From an uncultured Coriobacteriales bacterium (GTDB lineage: Bacteria; Actinomycetota; Coriobacteriia; Coriobacteriales; Atopobiaceae): a DNA stretch of 32,004 nt. The stretch is taken from contig CAMOLV010000004.1 in NCBI GenBank assembly GCA_946619045.1, positions 1 to 32,004 of the forward strand. Direction: 5' to 3'. Under the pieces are notes generated by a model. That model saw nothing but the letters and a program-made list of their open reading frames with translations, was not told the DNA's origin and ran no database searches. This document shows positions 24,168-29,734 of this stretch, in pieces. Position numbers and translations under genes: made by a program. The first letter of the stretch is position 1. Every line of letters starts with the position of its first letter.

Positions 24168-24503
24168 CTAGAGCTTCTGCAGGTAGACGATGATGGTGCC
24201 GCCGGTCGAAGTCACGTCCACGTTCGCCCCCGACACCGTGACGGTGATGTTCGAGCCGCCGCCCATGAGGAACGCCTTGTTCCCCGCAGGCCTCACCATC
24301 CACAGGCTGTTGCTCCCCGCCGTCGAGTTGTGCGTCGTCGCGAGCAGGTACGTGCCGGATGCGGAGGGCAGGGCGAACCTCGTTGCGATCCCCGACGATG
24401 CGGAGCCGAGCTCCATCCACTGCGCCTCCGACAGGTGGTTGTGCCCCGCCGGCGCGTAGCTCCCCTTCGGTTGGTACTCGGGATTGAGCCTGGTGTAGGT
24501 CAT
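24168..24503 (-). CDS. Short tail-fibre cassette
   Basis: MTYTRLNPEYQPKGSYAPAGHNHLSEAQW...: fibre-type repeat and YTRLNP N-terminus. Confidence 0.65.
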   Translation of the reverse strand: MTYTRLNPEYQPKGSYAPAGHNHLSEAQWMELGSASSGIATRFALPSASGTYLLATTHNSTAGSNSLWMVRPAGNKAFLMGGGSNITVTVSGANVDVTSTGGTIIVYLQKL

Positions 24504-24508
24504 TCAGG

Positions 24509-24521
24509 CCCCCCCCCCCCC
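24509..24521 (-). repeat. Poly-G tract (G13), 5 nt upstream of ATG 24503
   Basis: Plus strand has 13 C; coding strand ...TAGCCTC-G13-CCTGA-ATGACC. Confidence 0.95.
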
Positions 24522-24525
24522 GAGG

Positions 24526-24870
24526 CTACCCGACGCGCACCGCCCTCAGGGAGCCGCGCTCCAGATTCGAGAACTGCATCGACGCGCCAGTGCCCGTGCA
24601 CCCGTGGACGGACGTGGCCGATGCCAGCCGCACCACCCACGTGATCGTGCCCTGCGACGCGAAGCCCTGCTGCCAGTGGTTCGTCACCCCGCGTAGGCCG
24701 AACGTGGGCGTGCCCGACAAGACCGACACCACCGGCACCATCAGGTCTATGACGTAGACGCCCGCGGGCAGCGTCAGCGCGCCCGTGAGCTGCGTCAGGC
24801 TCGCCGAGGCCGACTGCGCCGTCCACTCCGCCTCGTAGTACTCCCCGCGGTTCAGGCGCGTGTAGCCCAT
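24526..24870 (-). CDS. Short tail-fibre / minor tail cassette
   Basis: MGYTRLNRGEYYEAEWTAQSASASLTQLTGALTLPAGVYVIDLMVPVVS... Confidence 0.6.
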   Translation of the reverse strand: MGYTRLNRGEYYEAEWTAQSASASLTQLTGALTLPAGVYVIDLMVPVVSVLSGTPTFGLRGVTNHWQQGFASQGTITWVVRLASATSVHGCTGTGASMQFSNLERGSLRAVRVG

Positions 24871-24878
24871 GAGCTACA

Positions 24879-24888
24879 CCCCCCCCCC
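24879..24888 (-). repeat. Poly-G tract (G10), 8 nt upstream of ATG 24870
   Basis: Coding strand CCCCGC-G10-TGTAGCTC-ATGGGC. Confidence 0.95.
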
Positions 24889-24927
24889 GCGGGGATTCTA
24901 GCTAGTTTCATCATCTTTCGCCCCTTC

Positions 24928-26598
24928 CTATGACGTGTACCAGTACAGCCCGTAGTCGCTCGTGTCGAGCACGAGGCACGGCGCCACGGGCGGGGTGTAG
25001 CTCGCTATGGCCGACGTGACGAAGCACGGGTAGCACCGCGTGCCTCCCGCCTTCAGCTGGCCCAGGAAGTCCACGTCGTAGCCGACCGCCAGCCCGCTCG
25101 CGGGCGCCGCCGCGCCGATGCCCATGCCCTCGCCGCCCGCCTTGAAGTCGAGCACGAACCTCGCCGACGAGAGCACCGTGGAGCGCGCCGTGGACTTCCC
25201 GCCCTGGTGGTCCGTGACCGTGACCGTGACGGTATAGCTCCGCTCGGTGCTCGCCGAGGTGAGGTCCACGATCGCGACCGCAGTGCCCGAGTACGCGCCC
25301 GTCCCGCCGCCGCCAGAGGACGGCGCGAACGTCACGGTCTGGCTCCCGTCGGTCGCCACGGCCTTGCCCGACACGGTGCCGTAGTTGTCGGTCTTGCCCT
25401 GGTCGATGCTCTGCATGGTCGACCATTTCGCCGTCACCTTCATATAGGTGCCCTCGTCGTCGGCGACGCCCTGCGAGTCGCAGCGCACCGCCGTGAGCGA
25501 GGTGATCTTCGGCGCGGCGTAGTTCGACCTCCACACCGCGTAGAGCGTGGTCGCCGCGGCCGTCGAGGGGTTGTACGACGCGCCGGGCGCGTACTGCGCC
25601 GCCTTGGCCGACGACGTGGTGGCCCAGCCCAGGAACGTGTGCCCTATGCGCGTGGGCTTCGTCGTCGACAGCGTGAGCGCCGTGCCGTGGGTCCTCGTCT
25701 GCGCGGAGGGCGCGCCCGTGCCGCCGTTGGCGTTGTAGTTGACCGCGTAGCTGTTGCCCGTCCAGTGCGCGTAGAGCGTCGTGGCGGCGGTCGGCCTGTA
25801 GCTCCCGCCGGCGCCGCCGACCCTGGTGCCGCCAGACGCGGCCGTGTACCATCCCGCGAACGTGTAGCCCGTGCGGGCGGCGGGCGTGGGCAGCGTGAGC
25901 TGCGCGGTCGAGTCGGAGGTCGTCCACTGGGCGGTCATGGTCGTGGCCGCGTTGGCCGTGTAGCTGCCGCCCGCCGCGTACGTCTTGCCGTCGGAGGCCT
26001 TCCACTTGCTGAAGGTCCACGTGCGCGTGACGTTGGCCGTGGCCGACCCGGACGCCTGGCCCGATCCGTTGTAGTTGTACGTGACCTTGTACGAGGTCGG
26101 CGTCGTGGCGGCGTGCGAGATGGACCCGCGCAGGGCGAGGGCCTGCCCGTAGTACTTCGTCTGCGCCGCGGGAGTCGAGCTGCCGCCGTTGGCGGCGTAC
26201 TTCACGGCGTAGGACGCCAAGGCGGGGACGGTGATGGCCGCATATGCGACCGGCTTCTTCGACGACAGCGCGGTCTCCCAGTCTTGGGCATAGCCGGTGA
26301 TGTAGAGGCATATGTAAACCGTTTTCGCCGTCGTGCCCTTAGCCACCGCCTTCGTGATGTTCTTCGTCAGGTCGTACTCGCCGTAAGGGTTGGAAGCCCA
26401 ATCTGACCCTTTGGCATAATGGCCGGAGCTAGCGCCGTAGGTTAAGTTGTTCGAGCTCGAGATCGTGTACCCGAAAGAACCTTGCCCGAAAATCTGCACC
26501 CTTGTTATTTTGGCCGTCAAGTCCGCGTTGGTCGCAGACGTGCTATAAGTTACGGTTACTGTTGAAAAGTCTTCGTAACTCGACTTCAATGTCGCCAT
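24928..26598 (-). CDS. Large tail fibre/adhesin with InlB-B / Listeria-Bacteroides-type repeats
   Basis: TGYTFAGWYTAASGG...TTLYAHWTGNSYAVNYNANGGTGAPSAQTRTHG...GHTFLGWATTSS...TTLYAVW. Confidence 0.78.
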   Translation of the reverse strand: MATLKSSYEDFSTVTVTYSTSATNADLTAKITRVQIFGQGSFGYTISSSNNLTYGASSGHYAKGSDWASNPYGEYDLTKNITKAVAKGTTAKTVYICLYITGYAQDWETALSSKKPVAYAAITVPALASYAVKYAANGGSSTPAAQTKYYGQALALRGSISHAATTPTSYKVTYNYNGSGQASGSATANVTRTWTFSKWKASDGKTYAAGGSYTANAATTMTAQWTTSDSTAQLTLPTPAARTGYTFAGWYTAASGGTRVGGAGGSYRPTAATTLYAHWTGNSYAVNYNANGGTGAPSAQTRTHGTALTLSTTKPTRIGHTFLGWATTSSAKAAQYAPGASYNPSTAAATTLYAVWRSNYAAPKITSLTAVRCDSQGVADDEGTYMKVTAKWSTMQSIDQGKTDNYGTVSGKAVATDGSQTVTFAPSSGGGGTGAYSGTAVAIVDLTSASTERSYTVTVTVTDHQGGKSTARSTVLSSARFVLDFKAGGEGMGIGAAAPASGLAVGYDVDFLGQLKAGGTRCYPCFVTSAIASYTPPVAPCLVLDTSDYGLYWYTS

Positions 26599-28202
26599 CA
26601 CTCACCACTCTCCAACCATTTCAACGTCATGTTGCCGTTCGCGCGCTTGATCCACGCGAACTGGCCGAACCTCTGCATGTCCTCGACGTAGAGCATCCCC
26701 GTGTGCAGGCCCCACGGGCTATCGGGGTCGTCCTCGTCCTCCTGGCCGAACCACGCGAGATCGCCGCCGTCCTTCGCGAACGCGAGCCTGTTGGCCCTGC
26801 CCTCCATGTGCGTCTGGTCTGCCCGCCCGACGCGCAGCTGCTCGCCGACCTCGACCATCGACTCGCCGCCGCGCACGATCTCCACGGTGTCGGTGATGCG
26901 CACGCCGTGCGCGGGGACCTCGCCGCCCTCGGGGTCGTAGTCGTCGTCGCGGTGCACGAGGATGCCGCCGTCCGAGATGTCGGTGATGTAGCCCGTGGCC
27001 TTCTTCGAGGCCTCCGACGCGAGCGCGGCGGCCGTGGCCTCGGCACCCGCCTGCGCGCCCTGCGCCAGCTCCTCGGCGTAGCCCTGCAACCCTTCCAAGG
27101 CGCCAGCCGTCTCGGCCGCGTCGGCCTTGGCGGCTATGTCGGCGCCGAGGGACTCGACCGCGCCCGACAGGTCGTCGGCGGTCGCGTAGTCGCCCGCGTC
27201 CTGCTTGCCCTCGATGGCGCCGGCGGCCTGCTCGATGCCTGTCTCCGCGCTCGCCAGCCTGCCCTCGATCCCGCTCACGTCGCCTATGTCGGCGGCGTCG
27301 GATGCGTACACCACGTCGCTCGGGGAGTCGAGGTCCTCGGGGGCGGCGCGCCAGGGATGCGCCACGTCGCCCAGCTCCACCATGAGGTTGGAGATGGAGT
27401 AGTAGTTGCCCGAGCCGTACGTGCTGTAGAACTCCAGGTAATTCGTCTGTATGGTGGCGTCCGCGCGCGGCGCCCATCTGGCGGTCACGGCGACCCGCTT
27501 CTCAATGGACTCCCCGACCGCGTGCGTCTCTCCCGCCAGCGCGTTCCTGGTCGCGAACTGCATGAGACCCTTTAAGTTGCTGTTGTAGACGGTGAGTATC
27601 GGGTTCGCAGTGCCGACGTGCATCACGAGGTCGAACGACACCGTGACTGTCGCAGCCTCGTCGGGCACGTACGTGCGGCCTATGTCCAGGCGCGTGTACT
27701 CCGGGCCGTAGCTCGTGGCCTGGTGCTGCGTGCCGTCGAGGTTGTCTATCAGGGTGCCCTGCGTGTTGCGCGCTAGGTTGCGGCCGAGGCCGTCAGAGAA
27801 GGTGGTCATAGAATCGACCCCCCCCCCGGACGTCTCGACGGACAGGAAGCCGTCGGAGAAGAACCGCGCGGACGGGCGCATGTAAGCCGTGCCGGCTGGC
27901 GCGGTCACGCTCCTCATGATCGACGTGGCGTCAGTGGGCGCGTACCACGCGGGCCTGGAGAGCTGCCTCATATCGGCGTCGTAGAAGGCCGCGCTCACCC
28001 ACAGCGCGCCGCCCGCCGTGGGCGTCGCCTCCATCCTCAGCTCGAACACCTGGCCCGGCTGCGCGTCGCGCACGCCGCCATAGCGCTCGTTGTTACCGCC
28101 CTGGGCGTAAGTCGTGTGCGGGTCGACGTTGCCGATGCTGGCCGTCACCCATCCGACGTACGAGTCGGCGTAGTCAAAAATCTGGATGGGGTCGCTAATC
28201 AT
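26598..28202 (-). CDS. Tail fibre / baseplate-associated protein, containing an in-frame G10 tract
   Basis: 534 aa; N-terminal 124 aa module, poly-G linker SGGGVDS, then MTTFSDGLGRNLARN... with coiled-coil and C-terminal fibre-like region. Confidence 0.65.
   Translation of the reverse strand: MISDPIQIFDYADSYVGWVTASIGNVDPHTTYAQGGNNERYGGVRDAQPGQVFELRMEATPTAGGALWVSAAFYDADMRQLSRPAWYAPTDATSIMRSVTAPAGTAYMRPSARFFSDGFLSVETSGGGVDSMTTFSDGLGRNLARNTQGTLIDNLDGTQHQATSYGPEYTRLDIGRTYVPDEAATVTVSFDLVMHVGTANPILTVYNSNLKGLMQFATRNALAGETHAVGESIEKRVAVTARWAPRADATIQTNYLEFYSTYGSGNYYSISNLMVELGDVAHPWRAAPEDLDSPSDVVYASDAADIGDVSGIEGRLASAETGIEQAAGAIEGKQDAGDYATADDLSGAVESLGADIAAKADAAETAGALEGLQGYAEELAQGAQAGAEATAAALASEASKKATGYITDISDGGILVHRDDDYDPEGGEVPAHGVRITDTVEIVRGGESMVEVGEQLRVGRADQTHMEGRANRLAFAKDGGDLAWFGQEDEDDPDSPWGLHTGMLYVEDMQRFGQFAWIKRANGNMTLKWLESGE
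27818..27827 (-). repeat. Poly-G tract (G10) inside the fibre ORF, 8 nt upstream of internal ATG 27809
   Basis: TCC GGG GGG GGG GTC GAT TCT ATG ACC; loss of one G gives ...CTA TGA overlapping ATGA. Confidence 0.95.
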
Positions 28203-28642
28203 AGAGCCACCCCCCCCGCTTCAACGGGCGCGGGTTCCCATGCGTCGTACGGCGTCTCGCTCAGCCGCACGAGCACGCGCTCGCCCATGTCCACGCGCAG
28301 CACGTCGCGCCCCGCGTAGGTGTAGTCGCTCGAACGCACCACGAGCCTGATGCCTGCGGCGTTCTCCATCGTCGTGAACGTGTAGCCATCCAGGTCGAGC
28401 CGCTTCCATCCCGAGTCGTTCAGGAACTTGCCGTCGGCGTCGACCTGATGCAATCCGGCCAACACGTTGTAGTCGATGCCATCGGCGAACGCTTGCAGCT
28501 TGTATTCGGTCGACGGCTCGACCGGGACAGTCCATATCTCCGCTTCAAGCGTCACGCCTGCCTGGCCCGGCACGTAGTTGCCGTTGCCCACGCCGCCGTT
28601 GCGCCAGAAGCCCGACATGCTCGGCAATAGGTTCTCAGCCAC
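28199..28642 (-). CDS. Minor tail / carbohydrate-binding-like module
   Basis: 147 aa MAENLLPSMSGFWRNGGVGNGNYVPGQAGVTLEAEIWTV...; ends through a G8 tract with an ATGA overlap. Confidence 0.55.
   Translation of the reverse strand: MAENLLPSMSGFWRNGGVGNGNYVPGQAGVTLEAEIWTVPVEPSTEYKLQAFADGIDYNVLAGLHQVDADGKFLNDSGWKRLDLDGYTFTTMENAAGIRLVVRSSDYTYAGRDVLRVDMGERVLVRLSETPYDAWEPAPVEAGGVAL
28210..28217 (-). repeat. Poly-G tract (G8) near the 3' end of the 147-aa ORF, 7 nt upstream of ATG 28202
   Basis: GAA GCG GGG GGG GTG GCT CTA TGA; gain of one G fuses to the next ORF. Confidence 0.95.
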
Positions 28643-29734
28643 TTACCCCTCCAATCTAGCTATGTAGCGCGCGTCAGCCGACACCTCGCACGCCATGCCC
28701 GTCCCGACCAGCGCGCCCGTGTCGACGCGGTACCACTTCACGCAGCCGACCCGCAGCACCTCGACGGCGGTCAGCTCCGCGCCGTCCTTGCGCACCGTGG
28801 CCGCGAGCGTGACGGTCGACGCGCCGTCGGCTATGTCGGGCGACGACGCGCTCACCTCGACGGCGTAGCCGTGCGTGGAGAGCGCGCCGGCCAGCTCCGT
28901 CTTCGTGTAAACGTCTGACGCGTCGGCCTTGAGGGCCACCTGATCGCCGATCCGCTGCATCTCGGCCTCCCATTGGGAGAGCGTCTTGCTGCTGCCGAGC
29001 TGGACGTTCGCGCCTCCGAGCACCATCTTCCCCGGCTCGTCACCCGACGCCGGGATGTAGACGATGTAGGCGTCCTCGCTGCCCAGGTGCCACGGCCTCT
29101 TCTCGTCGAACGTCACGCCGTCGCGGCCGAAGCTCGCGACCACGTTCCCCGGGCCGTCGCCGGCGCCGTCGTAGAACGCGACCGCGCCGCGCGTGACGCT
29201 CACGAGGTCGTACAGGCCCGAGCGCAGCAGGACGCCGAGGTAGTTCACCAGGATGTTCAGGTAGGGGTTGTCGTCGGTCAGGTCCGCGAAACCCGAGGCT
29301 TCCGCCTCGCCCCACTCGTCCTGGCTCACGTCGGCGACGTGCGTGCCCCCGCCGTCGGCCCACACGTGGGCGTTCGTCACCGCCGCAGCGGCGGCCGCCT
29401 CGGCGGCGATCTCGGCGATCTCTGCGATGTCCGCCCGGGCCTCGTCGAGCTCGCGCTCGACCAGGCGGGCGCGGCCGTTGCTCGGCGGGTCGGTCTCGTT
29501 GCTCAGCACCGACGCGCCGCCGTTGCCGTCGAGCAGCACCTGCACGGCGTCGCCGGCGCTCACGCCGGACCCGATCCTGACGACGGTGGCCTCCCCCTGG
29601 CCGAGGTCCACGGTGGCTGTCCCGTCGGCCCCCACCGAGGTGACCGTCGCGGCCGATATGCTCGGCCCGGCTGCCGCCCCGCGCTTCCTGAGCAGCGCCG
29701 CCGCCCTGGCGGCGATGTCGAGCATGTCCGTCAT
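28643..29734 (-). CDS. Minor tail / baseplate protein
   Basis: 363 aa with beta-rich N-terminus, coiled coil (ELDEARADIAEIAEIAAEAA) and VALKADASDVYTKTELA. Confidence 0.6.
   Translation of the reverse strand: MTDMLDIAARAAALLRKRGAAAGPSISAATVTSVGADGTATVDLGQGEATVVRIGSGVSAGDAVQVLLDGNGGASVLSNETDPPSNGRARLVERELDEARADIAEIAEIAAEAAAAAAVTNAHVWADGGGTHVADVSQDEWGEAEASGFADLTDDNPYLNILVNYLGVLLRSGLYDLVSVTRGAVAFYDGAGDGPGNVVASFGRDGVTFDEKRPWHLGSEDAYIVYIPASGDEPGKMVLGGANVQLGSSKTLSQWEAEMQRIGDQVALKADASDVYTKTELAGALSTHGYAVEVSASSPDIADGASTVTLAATVRKDGAELTAVEVLRVGCVKWYRVDTGALVGTGMACEVSADARYIARLEG

Follow-up and report, generated by a model that had tools for sequence, protein, structure and literature searches.

Poly-G variation in phages is already known. 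In the Campylobacter Fletchervirus, hypermutable polyG tracts are described, in a later paper's citation of the work, as creating phenotypic diversity and countering bacterial resistance (Sorensen et al. 2021, Cell Rep 35:109214, cited in PMC10877375). G homopolymers in a phage genome are common to that system and to the locus analyzed here. The Fletchervirus tracts reportedly lie in receptor-binding genes and have an on/off outcome, whereas the tracts of the present cassette lie where modules join, ahead of an internal start, with fusion or separation of the modules as the predicted outcome, and the host belongs to a GC-rich lineage, probably Coriobacteriia. No match to the central 534-amino-acid (aa) ORF was found among Campylobacter phage genes. 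Bacterial poly-G/C contingency loci of the Campylobacter and Neisseria type resemble the cassette in having a G homopolymer, a frame-dependent output and slipped-strand mispairing as the proposed motor, but the cassette tract is phage borne and doubles as the predicted ribosome site of the downstream module, and its variation is something that we infer. ATGA-coupled gene pairs with a G-rich Shine-Dalgarno (SD) sequence likewise have the stop/start overlap and an upstream G-rich ribosome site; in the cassette, by contrast, the runs are expanded to 8 to 13 Gs, and one of them, tract 2, is currently in the fused frame. A switch between fused and split modules that doubles as a ribosome site seems new to the lineage, and a literature search for poly-G phase variation in Eggerthella found no paper.

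The window, that is, the whole stretch of DNA analyzed, comprises 32,004 nucleotides from an uncultured Coriobacteriales bacterium. Its minus strand carries G runs of 8, 10, 10 and 13, the next longest being 6. The cassette is ordered A, B, C (28202-26598), D and small M(G/T)YTRLN ORFs, followed by a holin and a CHAP endolysin, and has the following features.

28643 to 29734, minus strand: module A ORF, 363 aa, the fiber N terminus
28199 to 28642, minus strand: module B ORF, 147 aa, with a GTG start; its TGA overlaps ATG 28202
28210 to 28217, minus strand: tract 1, G8, at the B/C1 junction, which is split now (..EAGGVAL, then stop)
27828 to 28202, minus strand: module C1, residues 1-125 of the 534-aa ORF
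27818 to 27827, minus strand: tract 2, G10, an in-frame Gly-Gly-Gly linker, predicted slip-prone run and predicted SD sequence for ATG 27809
27807 to 27809, minus strand: internal ATG, putative start of C2 and the tail (MTTFSDGLGRNLARN...)
26598 to 27809, minus strand: module C2, helical stalk and conserved C-terminal tail (FGQFAWIKRANGNMTLKW)
24928 to 26601, minus strand: module D ORF, a downstream fiber protein with Flg_new (List_Bact_rpt) repeats
24879 to 24888, minus strand: tract 3, G10, the intergenic ribosome site of ATG 24870
24526 to 24870, minus strand: small fiber ORF MGYTRLN..., served by tract 3
24509 to 24521, minus strand: tract 4, G13, intergenic, before ATG 24503
24168 to 24503, minus strand: small fiber ORF MTYTRLNP..., served by tract 4

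Tail-protein matches, fiber homologues and the downstream holin and endolysin place tract 2 in a phage tail-fiber gene, and the cassette appears to be the tail fiber of a temperate phage whose host is a gut bacterium, with receptor binding as its predicted role. Module C1 was beta-rich in a low-confidence single-sequence AlphaFold model (pLDDT 37), and module C2 matched phage tail families weakly at about residues 178-294 of the 534-aa ORF. Modules A and B share one frame, in which a TAA followed by the GTG is the sole break (window 28645-28640); the chain is continuous in relatives.

The G10-TGTAGCTC-ATG of tract 3 recurs in L056 and L012, and its G9 form was found in L009 and L011. A conserved element of poly-G, TGTAGCT and ATG, acting as a putative ribosome site, was seen before M(A/G)xTR(L/I)N genes in three different phages (L056:3307-3324; L009:4660-4641, minus strand; and the window at 24888-24871, minus strand). 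A search of genome_contigs for G8 followed by TGTAGCT and ATG gave 39 scattered, apparently chance matches. In L009 (4765-4690, minus strand), a short ORF 5' of the G9 run was apparently frame-broken at CTGCGGGGACGGG, with the other frame reading TSIIGWINLDGKGSAPVS and then a stop.

The 534-aa ORF (28202-26598, minus strand) contains both tract 2 and ATG 27809-27807 in frame, the context on that strand being GTC GAG ACG TCC GGG GGG GGG GTC GAT TCT ATG ACC ACC. An earlier note on this DNA had proposed that G10 is in frame and that G9 would bring a TGA across the internal ATG, and simulation of tract lengths from G6 to G13 confirmed both points. At G7, G10 and G13 the frame was open and C1 was fused to C2 (TSGG..VDSMTTF / ..TSGGGVDSMTTFSDGLGRNLARN..), with a junction peptide across the tract that spans TSGGGVDSMTTF. 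At G6, G9 and G12 the upstream module ended in ..SIL, where TGA 27808-27806 overlaps ATG 27809, and at G8 and G11 the upstream chain ended in ..RFYDHLL, five codons beyond the run. At tract 1, simulated lengths of G6, G9 and G12 fused B to C1, with G9 reading ..EAGGGGSMISDP..; at both tracts, then, a one-unit indel alters the protein product. The two tracts do have the TCTATGA 3' flank in common and do stand in opposite states, as had been claimed, tract 2 being fused at G10 and tract 1 split at G8. What had been called a two-state design held with respect to the fuse/split geometry, but the frame classes number three rather than two. The sharing of this design by the two tracts was also borne out, but its uniqueness was not: wherever two genes overlap by ATGA, their frames differ by one base, and a G run that lies within the upstream ORF as a ribosome site is then automatically a fuse/split site. 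An overlap of this type is present now at 28202, and at 27809 only when the run length is 3k. The automatic geometry, given an ATGA overlap and a G-run ribosome site, also suits a fixed gene fusion, in which two once-separate, ATGA-overlapping genes were joined by a single indel and the run is now a mere glycine linker. Neither a relic nor a linker would require a homopolymer, however, and on balance we consider this origin unlikely, although a serious contender.

The proposal that the G run could serve as the SD sequence of ATG 27809 checked out, with a predicted SD duplex of -15.4 at a spacing of 8 nt. Among 85 ATGs this value came close to the top 5%, and real starts had equal values. The G10-N8-ATG spacing is that of the bona fide start 24870, of L056 and of tract 4 as read in L012, and the ATGACC at 27809 matches that at ATG 24503, with ATGACG found at starts 29734 and 24151. 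By these features ATG 27809 resembles a real start; it could be an ordinary methionine placed there by chance (background 6.3%). Because the SD run abuts the 5' side of the spacer, initiation at 27809 would be available at every run length, and by sequence run length alters what becomes of the upstream chain, not the presence of an SD sequence at the predicted start. A static gene with two products would draw on the same observations, namely the -15.4 duplex, the 8-nt spacing, the ATGACC context and the occurrence of the G10-N8-ATG element before true genes; the run would then be a strong internal ribosome site, and the C1-C2 chain and a shorter C2-tail chain would co-assemble with no switching. 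We think this rather improbable, as an ordinary GGAGG site would suffice for it and ten Gs would be unneeded; neighboring gene A uses GGAGGAGG.

The cassette G runs are not due to chance. The whole source assembly (1,625,345 bases) contains five G/C runs of at least 8, four of which lie within the 3.7-kb fiber cassette. Such clustering, in an assembly otherwise nearly devoid of these runs, also argues against a fixed fusion at tract 2. An ATG follows the run after 5 to 8 nt at all four cassette tracts, compared with an ATG at 5 to 11 nt for 6.3% of arbitrary positions in the region; an argument against chance from ATG proximity alone was rejected as too weak at this rate. All four off-frames of tracts 1 and 2 close within about six codons, which is unusual against a background of 14% or 3% (by direction of shift) for a stop within five codons of the shifted frame, with the caveat that the overlap TGA at tract 1 is the present stop of gene B. 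Off-frames that stop within six codons would make slipped products short and defined, and together with the run length of 10 they are compatible with slippage of RNA polymerase or the ribosome on the run, by which a single DNA sequence would yield fused and split products in fixed proportions; we regard this as very improbable. As a separate candidate, a role of the tracts as promoter spacers was rejected, there being no sigma-70-like site within 24400-28700.

The fifth run of the assembly, a G9 at G000:C159:2823-2831 (L081:1501-1509), lies in a phage gene of ParB-N/methyltransferase type. Its N-terminal ORF corresponds to positions 13-73 of phrog_21498 and its C-terminal ORF to positions 72-269, and the two, in different frames, meet at the G9. 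The methyltransferase is frameshifted at this run, which reflects either true phase variation to the off state or an assembly error.

MutS was detected in none of 21 genomes (the source and 20 relatives), with 11 of 14 controls positive, and NucS above the cut-off in none of 13 genomes, with 7 of 14 controls positive; since the source assembly is only 69% complete, the absence of repair genes rests on the relatives. All Coriobacteriia analyzed in a published survey were without both NucS and MutS-MutL (PMC5290159). Judged from gene content, the host lineage appears to be without canonical mismatch repair, and slippage would be expected to go unrepaired in this host, a further point against a fixed fusion. 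Contingency behavior at the cassette is made plausible by the lack of detectable mismatch-repair genes, the extreme clustering of the runs and the frameshifted methyltransferase at the only other run.

Runs of at least 9 near an ATG were found in 86 of 140 genomes of the host family. These tracts include a glycosyltransferase pair, DNA methylases and a Cna_B surface protein, and genes for glycosyltransferases, methylases and surface proteins are types classically under poly-G contingency. A reversed-pattern control for the scan also gave matches, so not every poly-G/ATG site in the family is functional. The glycosyltransferase pair of genome G089 has a G28 between its two ORFs (L042:1482-1509) and follows the same arithmetic as tract 2, being fused at G28, with a TGA overlapping the ATG at G27 and an immediate TGA at G29; it differs in that the genes are chromosomal and the run is far longer. 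On the minus strand of L098 (about 5633-2330), a C-5 DNA methylase was split by G9 runs (profile parts 1-166 and 276-322), and a third G9 run lay upstream of a weak Radical-SAM match. Five genomes of the family (L087-L091) had a G9 or G10 run between TTG-type and TANAAT-type hexamers, with an ORF for an ABC-transporter ATP-binding protein directly downstream in at least two of them, an arrangement that suggests a conserved poly-G promoter-spacer switch. Another possible poly-G promoter spacer is that of the G10-TGTCTCTATGGTTTTGTCAA element conserved in L083 and L084, after which no long ORF follows.

The only other copy of the source phage, L012 (4,275 bp), came from another metagenome (sample 3300021387), and the comparison with it covers tracts 3 and 4. 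A single mismatch separated it from the window, at 24511 inside tract 4 (G13 in the window versus G10-T-GG in L012), and tract 3 was G10 in both. L009 and L011 were 100% identical over 6,348 bp, including their G9 run. The assembly pairs compared thus had equal lengths at tract 3 and at the G9 run and differed by one substitution at tract 4, and this lack of length variants is in keeping with a fixed fusion. The base after a G run is a weak spot of short-read base calling, and G13 versus G10-T-GG is a typical pattern of it; the mismatch at tract 4 was therefore given little weight. Homopolymer lengths from short-read assembly are uncertain, and both the draft state of the assembly (241 contigs) and the two readings of tract 4 speak for homopolymer errors, by which the tract lengths would differ from the true ones and the opposite states would be unreal. 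Since the G10 of tract 3 occurs in two independent assemblies, and the tract 2 run is certainly present, with doubt limited to its exact length, we give this explanation very little credence.

Fused and split alleles, which the earlier note had envisaged among homologues, were not found. In the sibling phage L007, whose tail protein is 87% identical, homologues of the A N terminus and of the C-terminal tail of C are joined in one 593-aa ORF, and in L146, L148 and L149 the C-terminal tail of the fiber lies inside one larger ORF. None of these four has modules B, C1 or C2, and none has a G run of at least 7 near the fiber. That other fibers with the same C-terminal tail are single ORFs with no homopolymer linker favors a fixed fusion. 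As these tail homologues are without B, C1 and C2, they indicate that a continuous chain is the usual form and are uninformative on alleles of the C1/C2 junction. No G run of at least 7 adjoined a fiber start in any of 11 regions that flank related tail genes in the host family. Relatives of the 534-aa ORF were found neither in viral_contigs nor in genome_contigs; against 400 genomes of the class, matches were to the C-terminal tail only, and among phage records there was one weak match, to a Pseudoalteromonas phage. Sequence searches with modules B and C1 found no relatives of either.

The explanation that we favor, at about even confidence, is that tract 2 is a poly-G contingency tract in which a linker, a ribosome site and a frame switch are combined. 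From its sequence, it looks like a hypermutable host-range switch: we infer slippage at the tract, use of ATG 27809 and an effect on host range. The run would code a triglycine linker, serve as the SD sequence of ATG 27809 and slip during replication, and slippage would persist in a host lineage in which canonical mismatch repair was not found. At lengths of 3k+1, such as the present G10, C1 would be fused to C2 and the tail. At lengths of 3k, such as G9, C1 would end at the TGA overlapping the ATG, and coupled re-initiation would yield C2 with the tail as a separate chain; a length of 3k+2 would end C1 five codons beyond the tract. With tracts 1 and 2 combined, one phage population would contain several versions of the fiber chain, and receptor binding would probably change with them. 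A bolder extension, which we offer tentatively and consider doubtful, is that the cassette is a combinatorial switchboard in which independent slippage at 28210 and 27818 yields four arrangements: B separate from a fused C1-C2, all three fused as B-C1-C2, all three separate, or a fused B-C1 separate from C2. Split modules would still be translated from their poly-G ribosome sites, so that the phage would vary the composition of its fiber, in terms of the modules joined covalently, instead of turning a gene on or off.

If the contingency reading of tract 2 is true, phages exploit repair-deficient hosts, diversifying their fibers by poly-G slippage as bacteria diversify their surface genes, with module fusion or separation as the output rather than simple on/off expression. 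Runs of at least 8 Gs that closely precede an ATG in fiber operons would then be a simple signature by which genome scans could find further cases, and the cassette would offer a testable host-range switch in gut Actinobacteria that are without both known mismatch-repair systems.
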